Shown here in pieces: positions 9,349 to 51,968 of a stretch of DNA of 64,000 nucleotides; the first letter of the stretch is position 1, and each line of letters starts with the position of its first letter. The position numbers were made by a program, and so were the translations under genes. Source of the stretch: Nitrospira lenta (GTDB lineage Bacteria; Nitrospirota; Nitrospiria; Nitrospirales; Nitrospiraceae); assembly GCF_900403705.1 (NCBI RefSeq), contig NZ_OUNR01000020.1:1-64000 (forward strand), given 5' to 3'. The notes beneath the pieces are model-generated. The model saw only the letters and a list, made by a program, of their open reading frames with translations. It was not told where the DNA came from and ran no database searches.

Positions 9349-10187
9349 TACAATCCAATCGTTTCAATCCGCTGCAACTCTTCCGGCGTCAAGGTGAAGT
9401 GATCCGCCGCCAGGTCTTCCTTCATGTGTTCTGGATTCGTGGTTCCCGTCAGCGGCAACATCCCGATCTGCATGGCGAATCGAAAGACAATTTGCGCGAG
9501 CCCAGCCCCGTACTTTACCGCCATTGCGCGCACATCAGGCTCTGTAAAGACCTCACGATTCGCCGTGAGAAGCGAGAAGCCCTGATAAATGATCCGATGT
9601 TCTCGACACAGATCCCGCACCTCTTTGTCCCAACCGAAGGCGGCATAGCAGCGATTCTGTACGACCATCGGCTTGTGCCTGGCCTTGGCACAGAGCAACG
9701 CGAGCTGTTCAGCCGATACATTGCTAATACCGATCATTTTGGCCTTGCCGGAATCGTAGAACGACTCGATTGCCGCCCAGACCTCCCAATCTGCCGCGCC
9801 CAATCCCCTCCTGGAATAGGGCCCGTGCAGGACATAGGAATCGAGATAGTCGGTGTGGAGATGCGACAAAGAACTCTGAAAGGACTGACTGACCTGGGTC
9901 GTAAGATCGGCCGTCGCCTCATAGGGCGTCCGGTGGTCTTGCCCGTCAACCGAGGTAAACTTGGTCTGAAGAAACAGCGCGTCCCGCTTGACCCCTTGCG
10001 TGGCCAAATTGAGTAACGCATCCCCGACCATGGCTTCTTGATAATGAATCAACTGGTTGGCTGTATCGATTGCCGTAAAGCCTGCCGCCACGGCGAGTTG
10101 CACCAACTGGCTCGTGGCCTCTTTCTTCCAGGCCGTGCCGTACATAAATGAGGGAATCGAGATACCGTTATATGCTGTCAACGTCAT
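9348..10187 (-). CDS. Aldo/keto reductase
   Basis: TIM-barrel NADPH-dependent carbonyl reductase. The ATG at 10187 is chosen because AGGAGG lies 7 bases upstream; it gives 279 residues starting MTLTAYNGISIPSFMYGTA. The catalytic tetrad is visible: Asp in AIDTANQ, Tyr in LIHYQEAMVG, Lys in LFLQTKFTS and His in YVLHGPYSR. The C-terminal part has LTGTTNPEHMKEDL, the cofactor-binding segment. Substrate unknown. Cotranscribed with the DUF488 gene. Confidence 0.92.
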   Translation of the reverse strand: MTLTAYNGISIPSFMYGTAWKKEATSQLVQLAVAAGFTAIDTANQLIHYQEAMVGDALLNLATQGVKRDALFLQTKFTSVDGQDHRTPYEATADLTTQVSQSFQSSLSHLHTDYLDSYVLHGPYSRRGLGAADWEVWAAIESFYDSGKAKMIGISNVSAEQLALLCAKARHKPMVVQNRCYAAFGWDKEVRDLCREHRIIYQGFSLLTANREVFTEPDVRAMAVKYGAGLAQIVFRFAMQIGMLPLTGTTNPEHMKEDLAADHFTLTPEELQRIETIGL

Positions 10188-38403: not shown

Positions 38404-40491
38404 TTAGGCAGGAAGAATTTCTTCGATAGTCGCTCGCTCAAGACGCCCGAGATTCACCCATTGTTCAGCCATGGGAACCAGCGTCTTCAGGCGCAGTTCC
38501 AGCGCTTCAAGGCGAATGGGTAACGACGTCACCTTTCGGTACGCGGTGACCGTCAAAAACGACTTCAACCCTTGGAGAAACATCATAATGGTCATCGCCT
38601 GAACCACCTTCGCCTGATCATGTAAGAATTCGACATGGCCAAGAATGGGATCGAGCTGTGACGCCGTAACAAAGCTGGCGGCCTGCGCCCGAAGAGAGGC
38701 GAGCGCTTCCGTCATTTGCGGGACATGCGAATGAACGGCCTGGAGAAACTCACTATCCTGCCGATCCAAGTCGCGAAGGATCCGCTCAATTGTAGACACA
38801 TCGACCGGCTGTTCCCCCTCGCCTACCGCTTCAGCATGATGGATCACGGCTTCGAGCATGTCCCGCGCTGGCTGCATCGATCTCGATCGAGCTTTCTGCA
38901 ACTCACGCAACGCACTTAACAATGGGAGTGAGGGGAGCGAGGACCATTCAGGCTCCGAGTCATTGGAATGGAGACTAGCCGTGGCCATCTCAGCAGATTC
39001 GACAGCATTCACCTCCTCATCTACGACAGACACTTCCTCGTCAGTACCTGTCTGTTCATCTCCCGCTATGCTCTGAGAGGGAATGGCTGCCAACTGTCGG
39101 ACCGCGGCGATGACTCGTCCCAACCCTTGGTGCAAATGGCGCAACGACTCGGTCGCAACGGCCGTCTCTGCTCCGCCGACATCACGAAGCGTAGGCAGCA
39201 GATTCGTCGCCATTGACTCAATCTCATCAAGATGCACCGTGGCGGCAGACCTCGCCAAATTTGTGATCCCGTTGAGGACAATCCCATAAACATGCGAACG
39301 AACCGGCCCCTCTTTGCCAGCACTGAGCCGGGCGAGCGCCGATTGAATTTGTGCCAGCCATTCGTGCGCCTCCAACGCAAACAAGCCCACGACTTCTTTG
39401 TCGAATCCGACATCCTCTGGACTCAGCGTCTCCGCACCGGACTCGTGACTCAGGATCGCCTCAGATTTCGCCCCGTCCGCGGCACCTGGATGGCGCGCAT
39501 GTTCAACAACGCCTTGAATGGCAGTCGCAATGGCATCAAGGCTCTCCAGAAGCGATGTAAACTGATCCGACGCCGCGCCCATCGGGACCTCAGCGTTTGG
39601 AATCTCCGGCGCAAACGTGAGCCGACCGACCACGGGAGCCTTGAGCGCTTCGATAATACTCACCAGCGGGGTCAGACTGAGATCAATATGCCGGTTCTCC
39701 GCATTACCCGCGTCTCCAGATTCATCGACCTCTACGATCGGCCGGAGCGGGTACCGCACATTGACACTCACGACTGTTCCAGTTTCTCCCGTAGTCAGCT
39801 GAACGGTCGTCCCAAGGGGATACACCGACAGCTGCTCGACCAACGCCTTGGTGATCTCCCGTGGAAAGGTCGCCCGCTCCGCCACCAGCAACTCCTTAAT
39901 CGCTTCATGCGGAAAGAGCCGGGGTCGATACGGCCGCTCGCTGATCAACGCGTCAAACACGTCGGAGACGCCGATGATCAATGCCATCTCGCTGATTTGC
40001 CGGCCTTTCAACCGATTCGGATAGCCCAACCCATTGGTGCGTTCATGCGCTTGACGAATCAATTCCGCTAACCACGCATAGCCAGCCCCCGACCGCTTGA
40101 TCGCCTCATACCCTAGTTCCGGATGTTGCTCGATCAACGTTCGTTCGTCCGCCGACAGGCGCCCGGCTTTCGTGACCAGCGATTGAGGCACCGCAAACAA
40201 TCCAATGTCGTGAAGCAAGCCTGCCAGCGCCAGCCGCTCCAATTCACGCCCATAATATCCCAGCCCCATCCCCACCTTCGTCGACACCACGGCCACATTC
40301 AGGAGATTCGTCAAGAGCGGCGATCCCGACGGACTGGAGAGCGCCATGACAATTAATTCATCGCTGCGCTTCAACGACGCAACCAGCGCCATGGCTATGG
40401 CTTCGAGCCGATCGAGTTCAATGGTTCGTTGACTTTGTATGGCCGAGGCGACCAGTGTCAGCTCGGCTTCGGCATCCCTATACCATGTCAT
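38404..40491 (-). CDS. Divergent HD-GYP protein fused to a degenerate Hpt-like module
   Basis: 695 residues from MTWYRD. HD-GYP region about 40-215: GLLHDIGLFAVP (His94, Asp95), HPELGYEAI (His123), QAHERTNGLGYP and VSDVFDALISERPYR. Several canonical positions differ: HHE is AHE, the DG.GYP Asp is Asn, and the usual upstream His is absent, so cyclic-di-GMP hydrolysis is uncertain. A PilZ-like or linker segment follows. From about 360 on it is paralogous to the whole 312-aa protein at 41440 (FALEAHEWLAQI; C terminus WVNLGRLERATIEEILP), but without the His. Last gene of the cluster. Confidence 0.8.
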   Translation of the reverse strand: MTWYRDAEAELTLVASAIQSQRTIELDRLEAIAMALVASLKRSDELIVMALSSPSGSPLLTNLLNVAVVSTKVGMGLGYYGRELERLALAGLLHDIGLFAVPQSLVTKAGRLSADERTLIEQHPELGYEAIKRSGAGYAWLAELIRQAHERTNGLGYPNRLKGRQISEMALIIGVSDVFDALISERPYRPRLFPHEAIKELLVAERATFPREITKALVEQLSVYPLGTTVQLTTGETGTVVSVNVRYPLRPIVEVDESGDAGNAENRHIDLSLTPLVSIIEALKAPVVGRLTFAPEIPNAEVPMGAASDQFTSLLESLDAIATAIQGVVEHARHPGAADGAKSEAILSHESGAETLSPEDVGFDKEVVGLFALEAHEWLAQIQSALARLSAGKEGPVRSHVYGIVLNGITNLARSAATVHLDEIESMATNLLPTLRDVGGAETAVATESLRHLHQGLGRVIAAVRQLAAIPSQSIAGDEQTGTDEEVSVVDEEVNAVESAEMATASLHSNDSEPEWSSLPSLPLLSALRELQKARSRSMQPARDMLEAVIHHAEAVGEGEQPVDVSTIERILRDLDRQDSEFLQAVHSHVPQMTEALASLRAQAASFVTASQLDPILGHVEFLHDQAKVVQAMTIMMFLQGLKSFLTVTAYRKVTSLPIRLEALELRLKTLVPMAEQWVNLGRLERATIEEILPA

Positions 40492-40533
40492 GGACACTCG
40501 TACTCTCCTTCTTCCCAACCGTATCCGGTCAGC

Positions 40534-41388
40534 CTAATGCGACGCTGCAACGCGTAGCACCAGCGGCCGATCGATGTGATCAACGTTTCCGTGCGCTCCG
40601 CTCAACAAGCAGAGATCGCAGAGCGCATTAATCAAGCGGCAGACACCGCCTGTGTGCCGATAAATCGCTTCCACCGCCTCCACCGTAAACAGCCTTCGCG
40701 CACACCCTGCCGCAGCTAATCGGCCTTGAATATAGGTCTGCGTTTCGACAACGTCAAACCGCTCCAGGTGATACCGTACCGCGATCCGTTGCATCAGCTG
40801 TGGGATGCCCGCTATCCGTTCTCGAAGTTCCGGCTGGCCAAGCAGCACAAGCGTCAACAGAAACCGATTGTTCATCTGATAATTCATCAGGAGCCTGACT
40901 TCGTCAAAGATCCGATCCTCAAGGATTGTTTGGGCCTCATCGATGACCAGCACCGTATCGAGCCCTTGACTGGCATTCGACAGCAAATGCTCATTCAAAC
41001 GCCTCAGCTGCATCGCCTTTGAACCACCGACCGGCAATCCGAATTGATACAGAATTTCTCCAAGAAATTGCTTTTCAGGAAGAGAGGGATTCGCCAGCAA
41101 GGCCACATCATACTTTGCCCTCGCCAGATTGAGAATCAGCGCACGGCTCAGAAGAGTCTTCCCGCTTCCGATCTCGCCGGTCAGCATGACCGCGCCCTTC
41201 CGAGCCTGAATCCCATACAGAATCCGTTGCCGCGCCTCCTCATGTTTGACCGAGGGGACATAAAAACGCGGATCGGGAACATTCTCAAATGGCTGGGTCT
41301 GCAATCCCCAATGCTGTTCGTACGTGAAAGGCACGGGCTCAGCAATTAACACATTCGTCTCCATTCCATCTTCACTGTACGAACACAT
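40534..41388 (-). CDS. ExeA/MshM-like AAA ATPase
   Basis: 284 residues (260-276 if a later ATG is used). Walker A GEIGSGKT near 70, Walker B VLVIDEAQTI near 147, then sensor-like LVLLGQPELRERI. The N-terminal YEQHWGLQTQPFENVPDPRFY matches the start of ExeA/general-secretion ATPases. These bind peptidoglycan or assembly factors for secretion and type IV pili; here the peptidoglycan-binding tail is absent. In this cluster it may link the chemosensory output to a pilus or secretion machine, which is inference. Confidence 0.85.
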   Translation of the reverse strand: MCSYSEDGMETNVLIAEPVPFTYEQHWGLQTQPFENVPDPRFYVPSVKHEEARQRILYGIQARKGAVMLTGEIGSGKTLLSRALILNLARAKYDVALLANPSLPEKQFLGEILYQFGLPVGGSKAMQLRRLNEHLLSNASQGLDTVLVIDEAQTILEDRIFDEVRLLMNYQMNNRFLLTLVLLGQPELRERIAGIPQLMQRIAVRYHLERFDVVETQTYIQGRLAAAGCARRLFTVEAVEAIYRHTGGVCRLINALCDLCLLSGAHGNVDHIDRPLVLRVAASH

Positions 41389-41439
41389 CGTGTCAGGGAT
41401 ACTCAGACAATGGTGTAACAGAAAGAGACTGGACCATCA

Positions 41440-42378
41440 CTACGCAACAGGCAACAAGGCTTCGATGGCTTCTCGCTCTCGCCGGCCAGCCTCTACCCAC
41501 TCGTGAATGATCCCGGGCATCTTACGCAGTCGATCCTCCACTCGCTTGAACTGAGCAGCCGGAGGCCTCACCCGCCGCTCCGTTACCAGTAGAAGAAAGC
41601 TCTGTAGTCCTGTGAAAAACGTCATAGCCTCGCCCGCGTTCACCTGTTGGGACACCGACCAAAGCTCAGCAACCTGGTTTGTCATTGCGCGCCACTCGGG
41701 GAAGGCCTCGTCCCATTCATCTCCAGACGTCCGCGCCATCGTTTCAATGCCGTCAGATACGAGCGGGCCAATCCGCTGCACTAGTTGCGCAAACGCTTGC
41801 TCAACTTCTGCGCCTCGCTCAAGAACCTCGCGCAACGACGCGGCATCACAATGCGTCACGCCATGTTTTGTCATCCCGTCAATCTGCGCAAGAATGGTCT
41901 TCGTGACATGGCATGGCATAGCCATACTGCCGGCCAAGCGACCGATCAGATCGGTGAGAGCAATCTGGAACTCTTGCGCCGGTACGGTAACGGGCCCTAC
42001 GTTGTCAGTGGCAGACTCCGCATCAAAGGCCACACCGGTCGCCCGGGTCAGCGCATCGTGAATCTGGCCCAATTGTTTGCAGAGCGCCAGAAATGCGGAG
42101 GCTGACAGAGGTACAGAGGGATTCTGTACGGCCTCAATCAAAGGCAGGCCGGCGAAGCTGGCCTGCTCCACTTCGTGCAGATTGATCGTCGCCGCGGACC
42201 CGCCAAGATTCGTGAGTCCGGCTTTGATCGCGTGCGCCAACTTGAGATGGCGATCAGCCGGAGGGCCTTGCTGCAATTCATCGAGCGCCACGTGGATCTG
42301 TTGCAGCCACTCCTGCGCTTCCTGGGCAAACAGCGCAATCAACTCTTTTTGAAACTCATCGTCTGTATCGACTGCCAT
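41440..42378 (-). CDS. Hpt-like (FimL-style) signalling protein
   Basis: 312 residues. The N-terminal 110 residues have the order of a histidine-phosphotransfer domain: FQKELIALFAQEAQEWLQQI, then LAHAIKAGLTNLGGSAATIN, where His49 sits at the phospho-His place but the surrounding K-G-S pattern is altered. The remaining 200 residues are helical with no known domain, and repeat at the end of the HD-GYP protein. Pil-Chp systems contain similar non-catalytic Hpt proteins. It might buffer or relay phosphate, or act only as a scaffold. Confidence 0.65.
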   Translation of the reverse strand: MAVDTDDEFQKELIALFAQEAQEWLQQIHVALDELQQGPPADRHLKLAHAIKAGLTNLGGSAATINLHEVEQASFAGLPLIEAVQNPSVPLSASAFLALCKQLGQIHDALTRATGVAFDAESATDNVGPVTVPAQEFQIALTDLIGRLAGSMAMPCHVTKTILAQIDGMTKHGVTHCDAASLREVLERGAEVEQAFAQLVQRIGPLVSDGIETMARTSGDEWDEAFPEWRAMTNQVAELWSVSQQVNAGEAMTFFTGLQSFLLLVTERRVRPPAAQFKRVEDRLRKMPGIIHEWVEAGRREREAIEALLPVA

Positions 42379-42431: not shown

Positions 42432-43814
42432 TTACACCCGTCCCTTGCCACTGCCGAGCTGAGATGCCAGTCCGGCTATTTCTCCAAGCTTGCGCGCCAT
42501 CTCTTCAAACCGCTTCATCGATTGTTCAGCGGACTGTTCAGACTCCGAGACGCGCCGAGCCAACACGGCGTTCCGATCCCGCTCGGTCTCCAAGAGCTTC
42601 TCGAACTCTTGAGCCGCTGCCACCATCTTTTCCAACTCATGAATACGGCTCTCCTTGGCGCGCCCGATCTGAGTCGCCTCAGCCAGTTGCTGTTCCAGCT
42701 CGCCGACCTGCTGCAGGCCGCGTTCAGCCTCGGCTAGACGTTCGATCAACTCTCCGGCACATGCCCGTTCCGCCGTCAGTGCGGCTTCTGTTTGCGTCAC
42801 CTGTCGGTCCAAGTCGGCCGCGCGATGCTCTTCGCTGAGCAGCCGCGCTTCCAGATCTCTCGCCCGGGCCGCCGCGGCCTCCAAGACGGTCAATTGTTCA
42901 ACCAATTTTGTCGTAGCCGCCCGTTCGGTCATCAGCGTGGATTCCAATTGAGGCACCACGCTCACCGCTTGTTGGAGATCGGCAATCTGCCGATGAAAGG
43001 CTTGAAGGGAATCCTGCTCAGACTTCAGCGCAGACTCGAGAGCCGATGACTTCGCCTGTGCATCCGCAAGCAAATCTTCACCGCTGGCAAGCTGCGCCTT
43101 GAGCGACGCAATCTGCTGCCGCTCTTGAGCCAGCTCAGCTTCAATGGCTTGTGCCCGGCTCGACTGACTACTGGCTTCTTCAACACGCTGCCGCTCGACC
43201 GCAAGTTGATCCTCGTATTCCTTGACCTGTGCCGCCAGGGCCTCCAGCTCCTCAACTCGCTTCCTGAACCCTTCACCCTTGCCCCGCTCAGTTTGAAGCT
43301 GAATCTCAAGCTCGCCGACCTGCGCGACCGCCTGCTTATAGGTCGCGAGCTGCTCGTCCGTGATGCGCGGGCCGCTCCATATTTCAACGGGCGCGACTGG
43401 CTTGGAAGCCGTCACGGCAGGAGAAGGAGCCACGACCGCAGAGTCCTGACGCTTGGCAAGTAATTCCAGAACCCGATCCTTGAGTGACGTTCCTTGAAAC
43501 GGCTTTTTGAGAACCCCATCGGCATGGCAAGACTCAGCCTGTTTCGTGACTTCGTCATTCACAATTCCTGAAATCAGCAATACTGGAGTTGTGGCCAGCG
43601 ACGCATGTCCCCGCACAAAGGCGCAGACTTCATATCCGCTCTTATCCGGCATGATCACGTCCGACACAACGACGTCCGGTCGTTCCTTTGCCAAATACGC
43701 CAGCGCCTCTTCTCCATTCGCGGCTAAGGTGACGCCAAGTCCAGCCTCCGTCAATAAGCGCTCCGCAACTTTTCTGACCGCAATGCTGTCATCTGCTACA
43801 AGAATCTTCGGCAT
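42432..43814 (-). CDS. Receiver-coiled-coil protein (FrzS-like layout)
   Basis: 460 residues from MPKILVADDS; GGGAG lies 5 bases before this ATG, so the upstream in-frame codons are dropped. The N-terminal receiver domain has Asp52 (VVVSDVIMPDKSG) as phospho-acceptor and a conserved Lys in VLKKPFQG. After a Pro/Ala linker, residues about 150-455 form a near-continuous coiled coil (QLQTERGKGEGFRKRVEELE onward). The same order occurs in FrzS, a polar motility protein, which suggests a positional or motility-linked output. No DNA-binding domain. Confidence 0.85.
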   Translation of the reverse strand: MPKILVADDSIAVRKVAERLLTEAGLGVTLAANGEEALAYLAKERPDVVVSDVIMPDKSGYEVCAFVRGHASLATTPVLLISGIVNDEVTKQAESCHADGVLKKPFQGTSLKDRVLELLAKRQDSAVVAPSPAVTASKPVAPVEIWSGPRITDEQLATYKQAVAQVGELEIQLQTERGKGEGFRKRVEELEALAAQVKEYEDQLAVERQRVEEASSQSSRAQAIEAELAQERQQIASLKAQLASGEDLLADAQAKSSALESALKSEQDSLQAFHRQIADLQQAVSVVPQLESTLMTERAATTKLVEQLTVLEAAAARARDLEARLLSEEHRAADLDRQVTQTEAALTAERACAGELIERLAEAERGLQQVGELEQQLAEATQIGRAKESRIHELEKMVAAAQEFEKLLETERDRNAVLARRVSESEQSAEQSMKRFEEMARKLGEIAGLASQLGSGKGRV

Positions 43815-43844
43815 ACTGACTCCCTTCACCTCTGTTCATAAATA

Positions 43845-44294
43845 TCAACCTTGGACAGCCCCTAAGCGCGCGGCTGAAATAATGGGAACGTCTTCAAACT
43901 CATCGGTGAAACATCCGACCGTATGAATATCTTTGTCGCGATAGGCCTGAATCTTTGCGGCATCGAGAGAATGCAACACCGGCATTTCCTCATCAATGCA
44001 TATCGCCATCGCACCGCCGGCCTGTTTGGCCATCAAGCAGAGGCGCTGCTCGCCCTTCACCCGAACCTTCAGCATCCCGGCGAGATCACAAACAGGAAAC
44101 ACCTCCTGGTCTCGGCGAATAACCGCCGAGATGAAGGGGGTACGGCTGGGAATTGGAATACTGCCAACCCAGGCTGATACCCCGATGATTTCTTCAGTTT
44201 TCACCGCAAGCCGACGGCCCCCTACTGAAAAGACCAGCAGACGGCACAGCTGGGAAGTGGCCTTGCGCTGCCGGCCAACCGCTCCCCTTAACAT
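43845..44294 (-). CDS. CheW-like coupling protein (divergent)
   Basis: 149 residues. The CheW SH3-like fold is seen in LLVFSVGGRRLAVKTEEIIGVSAW, IPIPSRTPFISAVIRRDQEVFPVCDL and ICIDEEMPVLHS. The start overlaps the stop of the next CheW gene (ATGTTAA). It is more divergent than the CheW near the MCP, so it may bind a different receptor or another signalling protein. Confidence 0.8.
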   Translation of the reverse strand: MLRGAVGRQRKATSQLCRLLVFSVGGRRLAVKTEEIIGVSAWVGSIPIPSRTPFISAVIRRDQEVFPVCDLAGMLKVRVKGEQRLCLMAKQAGGAMAICIDEEMPVLHSLDAAKIQAYRDKDIHTVGCFTDEFEDVPIISAARLGAVQG

Positions 44295-44821
44295 ACGATA
44301 CCCTTTTCCATTCTGTCGGACGTGTCCGATAGGCGCAGCGGCAACCGATGGCTCTGGTTCAGCAACCCGCTAGCCCCCTCTGTGGCGCCGCTCAGCAGCC
44401 ACTTCGAATGAAGCCCTACCGCTACTCCTTCGCCATAGAGGATAAGGCCCACGTACCAACTCCGCTCTTCACTGCGAAATTGACCTGGCAACGGCAACAC
44501 ACGCGTCCGTTCGACTTCGTGCAGACCATATACTCGATCCACCCGAATGCAGGCATGAATCCCGGCTTGGGCCACCAAGACCGTGCGTGTCTCCGCCCCA
44601 TTGTCAACGTGCGCAAGCCCGAGCCGCCCCCTAAGATCCAGCGAGGGATACTCCTGACCATGAACCGTAAGGATGTCGCTGGAGCCGCACTCTTCCATCG
44701 TCAACAAGCCTTGCACCAATTCAGCGAACAGGGCAAATTGCTGGCCGGCTATTCCTACAATCAAAAAACGCTCGATCGGCACATGAACAGCCGATGCAAC
44801 CCCATGGCCTCGCAAACTCAT
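44288..44821 (-). CDS. CheW-like coupling protein with extra tail
   Basis: 177 residues. CheW-like core RFLIVGIAGQQFALFAELVQGLLTM, YPSLDLRGRLGL and VLVAQAGIHACIRVDRVYGLHEVERT. After about residue 140 a tail of unknown fold follows (HRLPLRLSDTSDRMEKG). Lies 58 bp after cheA. Together with 43845-44294 it forms a pair of non-identical CheW genes. Confidence 0.75.
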   Translation of the reverse strand: MSLRGHGVASAVHVPIERFLIVGIAGQQFALFAELVQGLLTMEECGSSDILTVHGQEYPSLDLRGRLGLAHVDNGAETRTVLVAQAGIHACIRVDRVYGLHEVERTRVLPLPGQFRSEERSWYVGLILYGEGVAVGLHSKWLLSGATEGASGLLNQSHRLPLRLSDTSDRMEKGIVC

Positions 44822-44879: not shown

Positions 44880-47800
44880 TTACTTCCGGGCACCTGATAC
44901 CTGTCCAACCCATCGTTCCACTTCTTGCAGCAATGCGCGCTCTTCCACCGGCTTGGCAATATACGAACTGGCCCCGATACTGAGCGCCATCTGACGATGC
45001 TTGTCCCCCGCCCGCGTGGTCATTACGACAACTGGGGTCTGCTGCGTTTGCGGCCTGCTCCGCAAAGCTTGGATGACTTCCAGTCCGTTCAACTTCGGCA
45101 TTTCCAGGTCGGTAAAAATCAGCTTATAGGTCTGCGCCGACGCCTTTCGCAATCCATCTTCGCCATCCACCGCGGTGTCGACTTGATACCCTGCATTTTC
45201 CAGCATGCGACCGACAAATTTCCGAATGCTCAACGAGTCGTCGATCAAGAGAATTGACGCCCTTGCAGCCCCTTGCGCATCCATACCATGGTCCGAATCC
45301 TGATGAGACATCACAGCCGTGTCCGGGGCCGCCAACATCGCAGTGGACTCACGAGACTCCCGCGCGAACAGGCGTCCCGTATCCACCACGAGCACTACAT
45401 GTCCCTCAGGATCGATGGTAGCCCCGCCAAAACAGGACCGCTCCATCGAGCGTAATGTACCCAATGATTTAATCACGATTTCTTGACGCCCCAACAACTC
45501 GTCGACCGCTAATCCGATCGGCCCAGAGACCGTGCGTACCACAACCACCGGCATGGAGATATCGACCGTCCCGCTTTCGCGCCTGAGCAGATGGCGCAGC
45601 GAATAGAGATCAATCGCCTCTTCGCCCATCTGCAAAATCGCCCGCTCCCCCATGTGCTGCAACGAGCTCACCGTCGGCATCGTCACCTCGCGCACATTGG
45701 GCAATGGAATCGCGTACCGTTCTGATCCCACTCGCACCATCAAGGCCGTGGCAATAAGCAGGGTCAGCGGCAAATCCAACGTAAACTTGGTGCCCACGCC
45801 GGGAAGCGACTCCACATCGATATGACCGTTCATGCCCTCAATCACGCGCTTGACGACATCGAGCCCGACACCTCTTCCGGCCTGATCCCCCACCTTCTCC
45901 GCCGTCGAAAATCCGGGGGCAAAAATATACTTTAAGACTTCGGCATCCGGCATTGTCTGAATCTGCTCTGGCCGAGCCAGCCCGAGATTGACGACCTTTG
46001 TCCGGATCCGTTTGAGATCGAGACCTGCCCCGTCATCTTCCACTTCGATGATGATCGAGTTGCCTCGATGCGCGGCGTGCAAGTAGACCGTGCCGACCGC
46101 GGGTTTCCCTTTTGCCACTCGAGCCCCGGCGGGTTCAATGCCGTGATACACGGCATTCCGCACAAGATGGACCAACGGATCCACCAGCCGTTCCACGACC
46201 CCAGTATCCACTTCCGTATGCTCACCGGAGGTCACCAACGACACTTCCTTCCCCGAGGCCCTGGCAATCTCCCGGATGGCTCGGCGGAACCGTGTAAACG
46301 GAGTCCCGATCGGAACCATGCGGGCCCGCGCGATTTCATCCCGCATACCCAGGGTCAGCTGCTGCAAGTGGCTCATATCATCGTGCGACCGGCGAATAGA
46401 TCCGCTGAGCTGCGACATCGATTCAGTAATATCGGCCGTCACCTCGCTGATACGTCTCGCCAAAATATTGAAATCATCATACTTATCGAACTCCAGGCTG
46501 CCGAAATCACGCAGCCCAGACGCACCGACGGTTGCCGCCTCCGTGGAAGTCACAGGGGCGGACGGAAAGGTGAAGGTGTGTTTCTCTTCAAACGATTGCA
46601 CGGCATCGACCAACCTAGACTTGCAAGCCAAGACTTGTTGCGACAGTTGCTCCAACACACGGAGGCGCTGTTCCAAGCGACCTCGCCCAATGACCAATTC
46701 ACCGACCAGATTGAGCAATCGTTCCAATCGCTCTCGGCTGACTCGAATGACTTCTCGCTCTTCTGTGGGCCGGCCGTCGGCGGACTTGGATTGCGCCGCT
46801 TCGTCCGTGGATCCAGCCGTCGATTGCGGAGGAAGGAGCGGAACTTCGGCCGCGCCGACCGCATCCACACTTGAGACACCGCCACCATGCAGCAATTTCA
46901 GGTCGGCAAGTGCGGCGGCAAATCGTTGCTGAGTCGTCACCAGGGCCGCGGAGTCACGCCGCATGAGCACACGCACAACATCGACGGATCGGAGCAATAA
47001 GTCTGTCTGACCTGGCTGTACAGCCAAGTGCCCGTCACGCACAGCCCCCATAAAATCTTCAATGTGGTGAACCAAATCGCCGATAGCTTGAAACCCGACG
47101 GTATACGCAGACCCCTTGAGCGTATGAGCCGTTCGGAATAATTGATTGATCAACTCGTTGTCATGAATATTCTTGTCTAGCCGCAGGAGATTGGCCTCAA
47201 GCGTCTCCAAATACTCCTGGGCTTCCGGGGCAAAATACGACAGCACCTCGGGATCCAATTGCGGAATCAAATACTCCGCCGATAACACAGGGCTCGCTGC
47301 CACATCGTCATTGACTGCTGGTGCAACCGAAGGTTGGCTCTCTGTATGGACAACAGGAGTTGATGACACGGCGGCCACGATGGCTCCACCATCCCGTATC
47401 TGCTTCAGGAAACCAATCACTGCAGGCACATCATGCTGCAATTGCGGCACAGAGGACGAATCTCGCCGCAGGGCAAGCCGAATAATGCCGACCGCCCGAG
47501 TCAGTCCCTCGAAAAGGGCATCGCTCAGCTCAACCCGGCGCTCACGAACCTTGCCCATACAGTCTTCCATGGGATAGGCAATATCACCAATGACGGTAAA
47601 GCCGACCGTATAGCCTGAACCCTTCAGCGTATGGGCCGTTCTAAAAAGCCGGTGGATCGCATCGTCGTCGTTCGGGTGGGCCTGCAAGCTCCGAATCAAA
47701 CTATCAATCGTGTCCAGATACTCCAACGCCTCGGGGACGAAGTACGACAGCACGTCCGCATCCACATTTGGCACCAGATAATCCGGGCTCAATTGCGCGC

Positions 47801-48251
47801 CATCTACGGCACCCAAGGTGCCGTTGTCGTTGATAGCGGCCGTCTGACCGGTGGATTCAGCGGGGAGAAACCCATTGGACACGGCGAGGCAACGATCGAT
47901 CGTCACCTGATCTTCCCCTCCACCTTGTCCGATCACATCGAGCTGAAGCTGGACACCCTGCACAATTTCACGCATCGCCCCGACGGCGCGAGGCCAATCC
48001 GCCTCTGAAATCATGTGCCCCTGTTCGCACAACGACTCCAACCGTTCGCTCAACTGTGCGATGCCGGCAAATCCATAGAGCGCCGCAGCCCCTCGAATCC
48101 GGTGGGCCACAATAAACTGCTCGTGCAACTGTTGAGGACTTGGAACGGCCCCATCGGCTGGATGCACAGCGCGTTTGAGCTCGGCCATGCCATCGACAGC
48201 TTCAGCCACAAAAATGGCCAGCAGACTGTCTGGATCGAATTCTGCACTCAT
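44880..48251 (-). CDS. cheA: Hybrid CheA histidine kinase with three Hpt domains and a receiver (ChpA-like)
   Basis: 1123 residues. Hpt domains centre on His50 (AHRIRGAAALYG), His207 (AHTLKGSGYTVGF) and His376 (AHTLKGSAYTVGF). A dimerisation domain begins near 500. The catalytic domain has an N box LVRNAVYHGIE (697-706), G1 DDGAGLD (739-745) and G2 GRGVGLDVV (792-800). A CheW-like domain follows (830-960) and a C-terminal receiver with Asp1048 (FTDLEMPKLNG) ends the chain. Multi-Hpt CheA with a receiver is typical of the type IV pilus chemosensory class (ChpA). It phosphorylates its own Hpts and then the receivers encoded nearby. Confidence 0.95.
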   Translation of the reverse strand: MSAEFDPDSLLAIFVAEAVDGMAELKRAVHPADGAVPSPQQLHEQFIVAHRIRGAAALYGFAGIAQLSERLESLCEQGHMISEADWPRAVGAMREIVQGVQLQLDVIGQGGGEDQVTIDRCLAVSNGFLPAESTGQTAAINDNGTLGAVDGAQLSPDYLVPNVDADVLSYFVPEALEYLDTIDSLIRSLQAHPNDDDAIHRLFRTAHTLKGSGYTVGFTVIGDIAYPMEDCMGKVRERRVELSDALFEGLTRAVGIIRLALRRDSSSVPQLQHDVPAVIGFLKQIRDGGAIVAAVSSTPVVHTESQPSVAPAVNDDVAASPVLSAEYLIPQLDPEVLSYFAPEAQEYLETLEANLLRLDKNIHDNELINQLFRTAHTLKGSAYTVGFQAIGDLVHHIEDFMGAVRDGHLAVQPGQTDLLLRSVDVVRVLMRRDSAALVTTQQRFAAALADLKLLHGGGVSSVDAVGAAEVPLLPPQSTAGSTDEAAQSKSADGRPTEEREVIRVSRERLERLLNLVGELVIGRGRLEQRLRVLEQLSQQVLACKSRLVDAVQSFEEKHTFTFPSAPVTSTEAATVGASGLRDFGSLEFDKYDDFNILARRISEVTADITESMSQLSGSIRRSHDDMSHLQQLTLGMRDEIARARMVPIGTPFTRFRRAIREIARASGKEVSLVTSGEHTEVDTGVVERLVDPLVHLVRNAVYHGIEPAGARVAKGKPAVGTVYLHAAHRGNSIIIEVEDDGAGLDLKRIRTKVVNLGLARPEQIQTMPDAEVLKYIFAPGFSTAEKVGDQAGRGVGLDVVKRVIEGMNGHIDVESLPGVGTKFTLDLPLTLLIATALMVRVGSERYAIPLPNVREVTMPTVSSLQHMGERAILQMGEEAIDLYSLRHLLRRESGTVDISMPVVVVRTVSGPIGLAVDELLGRQEIVIKSLGTLRSMERSCFGGATIDPEGHVVLVVDTGRLFARESRESTAMLAAPDTAVMSHQDSDHGMDAQGAARASILLIDDSLSIRKFVGRMLENAGYQVDTAVDGEDGLRKASAQTYKLIFTDLEMPKLNGLEVIQALRSRPQTQQTPVVVMTTRAGDKHRQMALSIGASSYIAKPVEERALLQEVERWVGQVSGARK

Positions 48252-48301: not shown

Positions 48302-50188
48302 TCACACCAGTTTGAATTGCGACACAGAAGCCGTCAGCGTTTCAGCGAGCTTCGCCATATCTTCTACGGTGACACGGGCGGAATCCGTAGCTTTCTGCGT
48401 GGCCACCGCGCCGCCGGTGAAGTCCTTAATCGAGCGTCCCACCTTATCGGTCGAAGCCGTCTGCTCAACCGCAGACGATGCGATGCTCTGCGCCAGCTCA
48501 GATGAGCGCTGGGCGATTGTAGAAATTTCTTTGAACACATCACCCGTGCGTAACGCTGACGCCGAGCCCGCTTCCACCGCCTGGGTTTCATGTTCCATCG
48601 CGACCACCGCGTCCTGCGTTTCACTTTGAATCACTTTCACGAGGTCCGCGATTTCTCGCGTCGCCTGCGTGGAGCTTTCCGCGAGTTTTCTCACCTGATC
48701 GGCGACGACCGCGAAACGGGCGCCCGCCTCTCCGGCACCGGCGGCCTCGATGGCCGCGTTCAACGCCAGCAAGTTGGTCTGATTGGCAATATCTCGAATC
48801 GTCGACACGATCTGTGAAATTTCCAAAGACCGATCACCAAGCGCTTTTACCTGCTTCGACATGCGTTGCACCGCCGCGCGGATACTCTGCATATCTTGCA
48901 CGGTTTCTTGGACCGCCACACGACCGCGCTCGGTCGCTTGCAACACTTGGCGAGCGGATTCAGAAGACGCACCGGCTGTTTCAGCCACCTCGCGCATCGA
49001 TGCCGCTAACTGTTCGACCGCGCCCAGCGTCTTGACGGACTCATCGGCTTGATGCTTGGCCGTGCCAGACATCTGACCGGCGTTGTCTCTCAGTGTCCCA
49101 GCCGACTTGTTGACGCGTTCTGCCGCTTCACGGACTTGCCGCATCAGCTGGGCGAACCGCTGAATCATGAGGTTGAATCCGTCGGCCAAGTTTCCGAACA
49201 TATCCGCGGTGACCTCGCCGCGCTTCGTCAAGTCTCCTTTACCGACATCAGACACCAAGACGAGAAATTGCATTAAGCGCTTTTGCATCACGTCCCGCTC
49301 TTCCTCGGTGGACACAAGGGCCGTAATACGATCCAACATCGAGTTGAACGCTTTCGCCATGTGACCCACCTCGTCATCGCTCTCGAGCTTCGCGCGAGCC
49401 TGAAGGTTGCCCGCCGCGGCTTGCTCGGCGACATCGGCCACATGCACAATGTTCCGCGCAATATACCGAGCCAAATAGTAGCCGATGGCGCCTCCGAAAA
49501 TGAGCGCGAAGAGCCCTCCGAACAGCACCCAATTCGTACTCCGCGTCGCTTCGGCCTGCCCGCTCTCGTTCAACTCTTTGGCCAATTCCCGAATCGTGGT
49601 CAATAATTCTCGGACACGCAACGTGGCGGTGTTGTACTTATTCGCGACTTCGACTGAGAGCGCCAAGTTACCCAAATCTCGCATGCTCTGCTTCTGCTCT
49701 TCGGAGAGCGACGGCGAATAACTATCCGCGAACGCGCTGACGGCACCGTCCGTCGACACAAAATATTCGGCCAGCGCAGTTTTCAACGCAGCAATATCCC
49801 TGGCCTCGTTTCGCCCCGTTCCTGATTCGCGCGATTCCAATCCCTGGTACGCCTGCAGGGGTTCCAATGTCTGTTTCTTGAGGCCCGCCAGCGGAGCAAT
49901 GGCATCGTCAAAGTCGCTTTTCCGCGACTGGCGACCGGCATTCAGCAGCGCGTCGTGGTACAGACCGAGGTTCGTACTGCTGACGCCGGTGTTGGACAGC
50001 GCGACCGTTGACCCGTCATAAATATTCTGCAACTCAGTTTTCAGCCGGCTCAATCCGATAAGACCCACGAGGCCGACCATGATCATGATGACGCCGACGG
50101 CGGAAAATCCGAGAATCAGCTTCGGCAGTGTTTTAAGATTATTGAACCACGTCTGAATCGTCCACGCTGACTTGCTGTGCCTCGCCAT
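48302..50188 (-). CDS. Methyl-accepting chemotaxis protein
   Basis: 628 residues from [12 protein letters not shown], with GGAGGAGG upstream. Two membrane helices (about 23-45 and 220-242) enclose a periplasmic sensor of four-helix-bundle style (residues 46-215). HAMP-like segments follow ([21 protein letters not shown]), and the cytoplasmic signalling domain contains the hairpin tip [25 protein letters not shown]. The canonical tip E.AR is changed to E.AG. Ligand unknown. Cotranscribed with cheA, 50 bp upstream. Confidence 0.93.
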
Positions 50189-50293
50189 AACATCCTCCTC
50201 CAAACCCATAGGATAATCGGTTTCTATCGTCGCCGCGCCGTTGCCCTGAGCGGCCGTCAGCCAACTCAGCGGACAGCGTCACGTGTCGGCCAT

Positions 50294-50791
50294 CTAGTTC
50301 AACACCCCTTCCACGCAAGCCAAGAGTTTCTGCACATCCATCATGCCGCTCATGCGCTCTTCAATCTTGGCCAGCCCGGAAAGGAATGGCCGTGACTCCG
50401 ACAGTCCTCGCGACGTGGCGGTCAACAGATCGTCGGGATGGATCGTGCGGATCTCCGGCACCGCGTCGATCAGAATGCCGACCTGCTGCTGACCATGACG
50501 CACGACCACCACAAACGGCAGTGACGCGGCCGACGACATCCCGAGCGACGGACGTAAGTCCGCCAGTGGCATAACCGTTCCGCGAAGATTCGCTACTCCC
50601 ACTAAGATCGACGGCATCCCAGGAACCGGCGTCACGGTTTCCAGCTCAAAGACTTCCCGAACGTGACGAAGATCGATTGCAAACAGTTCTCCTCCGAGAG
50701 TCACGAGGCAGATACGCGACGGAACGGGTGGTTTGGCCCCTGCGGCCAGGACAACCCCGACGGATTGGGATGGACTGAGAGCTAGTTCCAT
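50294..50791 (-). CDS. CheW coupling protein
   Basis: 165 residues with the full CheW fold: CLVTLGGELFAIDLRHVREVFELE, VTPVPGMPSILVGVANLRGTVMPLADL and VGILIDAVPEIRTI. This is the most canonical of the three CheW proteins and probably joins the MCP to CheA. A Pro-rich N-terminal extension of about 25 residues is unusual. Confidence 0.92.
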   Translation of the reverse strand: MELALSPSQSVGVVLAAGAKPPVPSRICLVTLGGELFAIDLRHVREVFELETVTPVPGMPSILVGVANLRGTVMPLADLRPSLGMSSAASLPFVVVVRHGQQQVGILIDAVPEIRTIHPDDLLTATSRGLSESRPFLSGLAKIEERMSGMMDVQKLLACVEGVLN

Positions 50792-50831: not shown

Positions 50832-51194
50832 CTAGTTCAACGCGCGCTTCACGGCCGCCAAGAGATCTTCGGCTTTAAACGGCTTGACCACATACCCATT
50901 CGCGCCCTGCTGTTGTCCCCAAAACTTGTCGCTTTCCTGCCCCTTGGAGGTGCAGAGCACGACGGGAATGTTTTTAAAACGCTCATCGCCTTTCAGATCG
51001 CGGCAGGCCTGAAATCCGTTCCGTCCCGGCATAACCACATCCATCACAATGAGATCGGGCTTTTCGGAGACGATCTTCTCTTCCAGCTTGTCCGTATTCG
51101 GGAATGACACCACGGTGTGGCTGGCCGCCTTGAGATACCCTTCGATCATCTGCAACTCAGCGTATGAATCATCGACGACTACGATCTTGCTCAT
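50832..51194 (-). CDS. PilH/CheY-like response regulator
   Basis: 120 residues, a stand-alone receiver domain. Acidic pocket Asp8-Asp9, phospho-acceptor Asp52 in LIVMDVVMPGRNGFQACRDLK, and the switch Lys in GYVVKPFKAEDLL. The WGQQQGANGYVVKPF segment resembles PilH-type regulators of twitching motility. Preceded by GGAGG. Second gene of the operon. Confidence 0.92.
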   Translation of the reverse strand: MSKIVVVDDSYAELQMIEGYLKAASHTVVSFPNTDKLEEKIVSEKPDLIVMDVVMPGRNGFQACRDLKGDERFKNIPVVLCTSKGQESDKFWGQQQGANGYVVKPFKAEDLLAAVKRALN

Positions 51195-51233: not shown

Positions 51234-51968
51234 TTATCGCATCGGCACAACGACGCTGATTGCGCCGGCCAAGTCTCCCTCTTTCCATCCCTCTTTTTTC
51301 GTTCCGGTAATATCCCGTTCCCCTTTCGGTCCCCCATGGCAGGTCAGGCACGTCGGACCGGCATATTCAGGATCCATCACACGCATGACCGGCTTTCCCC
51401 CGACCATCGTCGCTTTGGCATATTGCTGTCCCTTCGGATGGCGTGAATCGGCGAACATGCGCAACACTTCCGATTCGAAATCATCCGGCTTGTTGCCAGG
51501 GAAGCGATAATCCGTTCCCGTCAGCTTCAAGCGAATGCCGGTCTTCTTGTAGAATTTCTCTCCGGACTTGCGCGCAAAGACAGCCGGAATGAATCCTTTG
51601 AAGGCGACACCCTGTTTATTGATGACCGGCTGTCCCTCCAACACCACCTCACGCTCCGCTTCGAGCAACGCCAGGAGCACACCGTTTTGCGGAGCTCCAT
51701 TGGGACGGCTCAGATCGACACGTGTCTTCGCTTTGAATTTCTCAATGACCTGATGCGCCATGAATTCGTCGGTAAATCCTTTATTGCCTTTGCTGGGATC
51801 GTTAATCAGCGCCTGATGTTCCGAGACCACCGCGCGGCCTGATTTCAGCAATGCAATCAACAGCTCTGCCGTCTCGCTCTCATCGCCTGCGCGAGCAAAC
51901 GATGCCCCTCCCATCACCATCGCACAGACGACCGCACTAACAATGAGTGATGTGAACCGTGCTTTCAT
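51234..51968 (-). CDS. Secreted haem protein with Tll0287/DUF3365 domain
   Basis: 244 residues with a signal peptide (to about residue 27, ARA). One c-type haem motif CLTCH (207-211) lies near the C terminus in CLTCHGGPKGERDITG, followed by EGDLAGAISVVVPM, the end of the DUF3365 pattern. Such domains often serve as the sensor part of histidine kinases or MCPs; here it is a separate protein leading the chemosensory operon. GGAGGAGG precedes the ATG. Confidence 0.88.
   Translation of the reverse strand: MKARFTSLIVSAVVCAMVMGGASFARAGDESETAELLIALLKSGRAVVSEHQALINDPSKGNKGFTDEFMAHQVIEKFKAKTRVDLSRPNGAPQNGVLLALLEAEREVVLEGQPVINKQGVAFKGFIPAVFARKSGEKFYKKTGIRLKLTGTDYRFPGNKPDDFESEVLRMFADSRHPKGQQYAKATMVGGKPVMRVMDPEYAGPTCLTCHGGPKGERDITGTKKEGWKEGDLAGAISVVVPMR

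Follow-up and report, generated by a model that had tools for sequence, protein, structure and literature searches.

Why should an operon encode the same histidine phosphotransfer (Hpt)-like protein twice, once alone and once fused to an HD-GYP domain? This question is raised by the window analysed here, a stretch of 64,000 nucleotides which corresponds to bases 1-64000 of contig C20 in a 3.76 Mb genome. A scan of genome contigs places its relatives in Nitrospira, N. moscoviensis among them. A chemotaxis-like operon of the window ends with the genes for the stand-alone protein, which we call HptS, and for the fusion, whose Hpt-like part we call HptF. As judged from their sequences, both copies are pseudo-Hpt proteins without a phospho-acceptor, and no catalytic activity is predicted for the HD-GYP half. 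We propose, with an even chance of being right, that HptS and HptF are phosphorylation-incompetent scaffolds for docking a response regulator, similar to FimL, and that HptF is tethered to a dead HD-GYP domain which would link the receptor array with cyclic di-GMP (c-di-GMP) and with exopolysaccharides or pili. What is new is the conserved combination; FimL-like pseudo-Hpt proteins and dead HD-GYP domains of the receptor type are known kinds.

Homology and fold of HptS and HptF

Both open reading frames are found, on the minus strand, at the coordinates given in a first-pass annotation of this DNA (Table 1). The annotation described a single protein family, present both alone and fused to a divergent HD-GYP domain. 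This description is right, and the family is more widespread than could be seen from the window. In tblastn searches of their own genome, HptS and HptF show 32% identity in the N-terminal part (E 2e-11) and 25% identity in the C-terminal part (E 1e-6). A profile-profile comparison (probability 100, E 3e-46, 304 columns) identifies them as full-length homologues. The similarity between the two C-terminal regions is significant, and neither of them matches a described family of known function.

The N domain is of the CheA P1/Hpt kind, it matches the Thermotoga CheA P1 profile at E 3e-5. The Pfam Hpt family is detected in 28 of 34 aligned members, with a best value of 1.1e-9; the copy in the window only reaches 0.015, under the cut-off. 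The model of HptS has a mean predicted local distance difference test score (pLDDT) of 89.8 and a predicted template modelling score of 0.58. Its residues 8-116 superpose on CheA P1 (1tqg) with a Z score of 13.9 and 2.4 Å. Since helical bundles can reach high Z scores by chance, the sequence profile is the stronger evidence.

Past the N domain, Foldseek and VIA matches of the HptS model are generic helical bundles only, and the C-terminal 163 residues of HptF have no sequence match in the PDB. Between the C domain and the N domain there is a weak alignment (probability 39, 96 columns), and the order of their helices is similar. Possibly the C domain is another Hpt bundle, now degenerate, similar to the arrangement in FimL.

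The most conserved parts of both proteins are helix A and the half of helix B which contains the pseudo-site, with 0.6-0.7 bits. The remaining segments have 1.0-2.6 bits, except a short junction in HptF (246-267) with 0.8. We read the conservation of these helices as a putative docking face which has been retained.

The phospho-acceptor position

The first-pass annotation suggested that the fused copy had lost a phospho-His which the stand-alone copy keeps. It set AHAIKAGLTNLGG against YGIVLNGITNLAR and regarded the AHAIK His, residue 49 of HptS, as the acceptor. This comparison is out of register. In a profile alignment to solved CheA P1 domains, the phospho-His of CheA pairs with Thr56 of HptS, seven residues away from the proposed one. 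The same result is obtained with the Hpt2 and Hpt3 domains of the CheA encoded in the same operon. The HptS string LTNLGGSAAT corresponds to AHTLKGSAYT in CheA, that is, LTNLGGSAATINL (with Thr56) is aligned with AHTLKGSAYTVGF (with the CheA phospho-His).

Position 56 is never His in the proteins we have compared. It is Thr in 69 of 86 distinct HptS, in 36 of 42 HptF and in all six single-copy relatives. Instead of the helper Lys, Gly (Gly59) predominates in HptS and Ala in HptF. On the other hand, His49 is not conserved: among the 86 distinct HptS, its position is Gln in 43, His in 14 and Gly in 13, so that 72 lack His there. The profile alignment and this census lead us to reject His49 (AHAIKAG) as a phosphorylation site. 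A string which looks like HxxK needs to be aligned before it is called a phospho-site. By these alignments HptS, HptF and the single-copy relatives are all pseudo-Hpt proteins.

The other components of the phosphate route are conserved. Hpt domains 1, 2 and 3 of the co-encoded CheA keep their His in 68/69, 62/64 and 68/68 cases, respectively, and the phospho-Asp of the coiled-coil regulator is retained in 99 of 99 orthologues. Phosphate can therefore pass from CheA to the receivers, and HptS and HptF stand beside that route. The helper Lys position of CheA Hpt1 differs from that of Hpt2 and Hpt3 in having Arg or Cys in most orthologues.

A degenerate HD-GYP domain

The closest structure to the HD-GYP half, both by sequence and by model, is PmGH (4mcw, E 5e-18). 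The best Foldseek matches of the weak model of the fusion are HD-GYP structures. PmGH is an active enzyme with a tri-iron centre, whose essential ligands are missing in the window's domain. Changing H189, H276 or K225 of PmGH to Ala abolishes activity in each case (PMC4159591). These residues correspond to Asn, Ala and Leu in the window. All 81 sequences of the genus have the same kind of replacements: H189 is Asn, H276 is Ala or Val, and K225 is Leu, Ile or Val. The equivalent of E185 is likewise lost in these sequences. As H189, H276 and K225 are all absent, we predict an inactive HD-GYP half throughout the genus. Two substitutions already noticed in the first-pass annotation, AHE for HHE and Asn for the Asp of DG.GYP, are confirmed; the latter position is Asn in 74 of the 81 sequences and Asp in two.

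Most residues which contact the substrate are retained, and the GYP motif is kept in the window. H221, D222, H250, H277, D305, D308, Y285 and R314 (PmGH numbering) are invariant in the 81 sequences. K317 is replaced by Arg; Y285, R314 and a basic residue at K317 are kept in at least 80 of them. In PmGH, changes in G284, Y285, P286, R314 and K317 cause no large loss of activity, and these residues are implicated in the recognition of c-di-GMP (PMC4159591). The HD-GYP half may bind this nucleotide. Between the window and five near relatives, its ratio of nonsynonymous to synonymous substitution rates (dN/dS) is 0.07-0.09, which equals that of CheA, so this part of the protein is under strong purifying selection.

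Comparison with known systems

The protein most similar by description to HptS is FimL, from the Pil-Chp system of Pseudomonas aeruginosa. Both are stand-alone Hpt-like proteins without a phospho-acceptor which accompany a CheA with several Hpt domains. FimL has Gln at both acceptor sites (PMC3019171), and it recruits the response regulator PilG (PMC3019171; PMC10519157). In the case of HptS and HptF, regulator docking is proposed by analogy. There are other differences. FimL is homologous to the N-terminal 563 residues of ChpA and contains two Hpt-like domains, whereas HptS has one clear domain and a helical one. HptS is encoded within the chemosensory operon, unlike FimL. Pfam and NCBIfam scans reported no FimL family. 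We know of no FimL protein fused to HD-GYP.

The N domain shares its fold and a significant profile similarity with CheA P1 domains (Thermotoga 1tqg and 2ld6, and Hpt3 of the co-encoded CheA). These domains have a phospho-His and a helper Lys, while HptS and HptF lack both.

A dead HD-GYP domain which acts as a c-di-GMP receptor has been described in DvhD (PMC13090378), from Desulfovibrio vulgaris. On our reading of the alignment, the Tyr-Arg pair in its canonical site seems to correspond to the conserved YR of RPYRPRL in the fusion. DvhD is membrane-bound and contains dCache and PAS domains; in the fusion the partner of HD-GYP is a pseudo-Hpt. The residues lost are also different: DvhD has lost HD, which is replaced by SQ; the fusion keeps HD and has lost H189, H276 and K225.

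Literature searches on chemosensory or HD-GYP proteins of Nitrospira, and on HD-GYP with Hpt, gave no account of the operon or of the fusion. Here two folds, Hpt and HD-GYP, both stripped of their chemistry, are joined as a conserved adaptor, and the stages of its assembly can be seen in living relatives.

Assembly and distribution

The order of these stages was taken from a tree of the co-encoded CheA. Only a single pseudo-Hpt gene is present in the sister family f2 and in early branches of the family (L198-L200, L202). L201 combines one pseudo-Hpt gene with the ATPase and with an HD-GYP that is not fused. The clade above L201 (99% support in the SH-aLRT branch test) carries HptS together with the fusion, which some members have lost. 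HptS and HptF lie each on one side of a branch in the protein tree, with supports of 91 and 99, apart from an HptS row at the midpoint root whose placement is uncertain. This split is compatible with one duplication and one fusion. According to these sequences, the operon has grown stepwise: a single pseudo-Hpt gene was joined by the ATPase and HD-GYP pair, the pseudo-Hpt was duplicated and fused, and HptF was later lost in some lineages.

The fusion is not peculiar to the window, it is found in several genera of the family. It is intact in 44 of the loci examined and broken by assembly gaps in two, while 53 have HptS and HD-GYP without HptF; some genomes were reached by two routes in these counts. 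The first-stage contig scan covered the best 80 of 120 relatives, which are all Nitrospira-like, although one is labelled Omnitrophota and another Nitrosospira. More distant relatives outside Nitrospirota may therefore exist.

An apparent split between HD-GYP and HptF in G002 (L057) is probably an assembly artefact, there is NN at 10162-10163 within the gene. The junction helix of the fusion also appears at the C terminus of unfused HD-GYP orthologues. We had considered it a relic of the fusion, an idea which was dropped, as the unfused L201 protein has the same helix. The ATPase gene is broken or fragmentary in several loci (L054:7906-8363; L067:6154-6281; L138; L143) and absent in others, in which HptS and HD-GYP stay.

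The ATPase and HD-GYP pair and exopolysaccharide genes

The ATPase resembles the ATPase associated with XrtA/PEP-CTERM systems (TIGR03015), with 214 bits against a curated cut-off of 324.5 bits. In contrast with that family, it is located inside a chemosensory operon. The f2 relatives of the pair (57% identity for the ATPase, 46% for HD-GYP) form a two-gene unit outside the chemosensory operon. At L082:7790-14180, this unit lies directly upstream of Wza-like, Wzc-like and O-antigen polymerase/ligase-like genes, exopolysaccharide gene names which were assigned from the sequence by eye. A paralogous HD-GYP in the genome of the window (43%) adjoins the same kinds of genes in a matching position. 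The paralogous HD-GYPs also lack the equivalents of H189, H276 and K225, which are Asn, Glu and Met (partly by eye). The HD-GYP subfamily seems to be degenerate at the exopolysaccharide locus as well. From these relatives we infer that the chemosensory operon acquired an exopolysaccharide-associated pair, either by copying or by relocation.

A second HD-GYP protein of contig C20, with 333 residues, is encoded outside the window (L072:5264-6265, C20 about 103263-104264). It has EHE for HHE and HDLGM for HDIGK, and its gene adjoins Wza-, Wzc- and O-antigen-ligase-like genes.

PilT is present in 27 of 28 sampled genomes with HptS or a single-copy relative; the genome without it is 67% complete. 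No flagellin was detected in nine of these 28 operon-bearing genomes, among which are all six from f2. The output is more likely to be non-flagellar, through pili or exopolysaccharides, as far as can be judged from a correlation within one order in which shared ancestry is not corrected for.

Proposed function and alternatives

In the mechanism we propose for this Nitrospiraceae system, the receptor array and CheA would phosphorylate the coiled-coil regulator, a logic which is established for such systems. HptS and HptF would hold a response regulator through the conserved P1 face without accepting phosphate, in the manner of FimL. The regulator held would most likely be the CheY/coiled-coil protein encoded just upstream, which would be kept near its CheA kinase. 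The HD-GYP domain attached to HptF should not hydrolyse c-di-GMP, it might bind it and report its state. HptF would thus tie the chemosensory output to c-di-GMP and, together with the ATPase encoded next to it, to exopolysaccharides and/or type IV pili. The first-pass annotation had suggested a scaffold or c-di-GMP output matched to a phospho-Hpt partner. The partner has to be given up, since both copies lack the acceptor; the suggested output is plausible. If correct, this proposal offers a testable candidate for the control of surface growth and flocculation in the main nitrite oxidisers and in comammox bacteria.

A more specific version is possible, and we only hold it tentatively. The dead HD-GYP might be a c-di-GMP receptor which directly gates the regulator-holding pseudo-Hpt; a single protein would integrate the messenger and the kinase output, and control exopolysaccharides and pili in Nitrospira.

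Several observations weigh against the proposed scaffolds and their outputs. HptF has been lost at least twice, in the L087 lineage and in a large Nitrospira clade, and the ATPase has been lost repeatedly, so both are dispensable parts. Among 11 genomes which lack the operon, 4 have PilT too. No database family matched the helical C domain. The model of the fusion protein has a mean pLDDT of 68.5, with part of the HD-GYP domain below 50, and the pocket cannot be judged from it. K225 is near the active site in PmGH; with this residue lost and the metal centre disturbed, ligand binding is uncertain.

The loss of K225 and the altered metal site favour another explanation, in which the HD-GYP half would bind no nucleotide and would only be a module for dimerisation or protein binding. 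Dead domains frequently serve as scaffolds. Nevertheless, Y285, R314 and the basic residue at K317 are retained, and a dN/dS as low as that of the kinase also argues against a plain scaffold. We regard this explanation as doubtful, although it must be kept in mind.

The prevalence of Thr at position 56 suggests that HptS and HptF could be phosphorylated there, as threonine-type Xpt domains. ChpA has been described with histidine, threonine and serine Xpt domains (PMC12632253), which provides a precedent. However, about one tenth of the copies carry Ala, Met, Phe, Ile or Asn at this position, and the helper Lys is replaced by Gly or Ala, so we find such phosphorylation improbable. Even less probable is some residual hydrolase activity of the HD-GYP domain, perhaps on another cyclic dinucleotide: five of the eight metal ligands of PmGH are invariant in the 81 sequences, but the three residues which are each needed in PmGH are lost in all of them. 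Finally, H49, K52 and G54 look like HxxKxG in the window's protein and its near relatives, yet the idea that in this subclade His49 makes HptS a functional phospho-Hpt, with HptF as its dead partner, has hardly any chance of being right, as profile alignments give another register and His is found in 14 of 86 proteins only, being replaced by Ser in the close relative G022.

Gene order and other features

The genes of the operon are transcribed from the minus strand in the order CheY-like receiver, CheW, methyl-accepting receptor, CheA, two CheW, coiled-coil regulator, HptS, AAA ATPase and HD-GYP fusion (Table 1). The reading frame of the fusion is open as far as 40518. We consider the ATG at 40491 the likeliest start, given that in the nearest relative a stop codon lies shortly before this position.

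Table 1. Features of the chemotaxis-like operon in the window
Feature	Position	Strand	Remarks
HD-GYP and pseudo-Hpt fusion protein	38404..40491	-	695 residues from ATG at 40491; Pfam HD_5 E 3e-26
HptF C domain	38416..38925	-	Residues ~523-692; helical, without known family
HptF N domain	39085..39420	-	Residues ~358-469; pseudo-Hpt, CheA P1 fold
Junction helix of the fusion, SDQFTSLLESLDAIATAIQGVV	39499..39564	-	Residues ~310-331
Degenerate HD-GYP domain of the fusion	39817..40359	-	Residues ~45-225; H189, H276 and K225 of PmGH replaced
AAA ATPase	40534..41388	-	Related to XrtA/PEP-CTERM ATPase, 214 bits; Walker A GEIGSGKT, Walker B VLVIDE
HptS, stand-alone pseudo-Hpt	41440..42378	-	312 residues; N domain with CheA P1 fold and helical C domain
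HptS Thr56 codon	42211..42213	-	Equivalent to the CheA P1 phospho-His position
HptS His49 codon	42232..42234	-	Neither conserved nor equivalent to the phospho-His
Response regulator	42432..43829	-	Receiver and long coiled coil; likely docking partner
CheW-like protein	43845..44294	-	
CheW-like protein	44288..44821	-	
CheA kinase	44880..48251	-	Three Hpt domains, CheW domain, receiver
Methyl-accepting receptor	48302..50209	-	4HB_MCP, HAMP, MCPsignal
CheW	50294..50791	-	
CheY-like receiver	50862..51194	-	Found by its similarity (32%) to the receiver of the coiled-coil regulator

The genes examined include no CheB or CheR. At the upstream end of the chemosensory operon (window 51234-51968) there is a gene for a Tll0287-like protein (Pfam E 1e-24), which occupies the same place in many relatives. 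It is possibly a sensory input.

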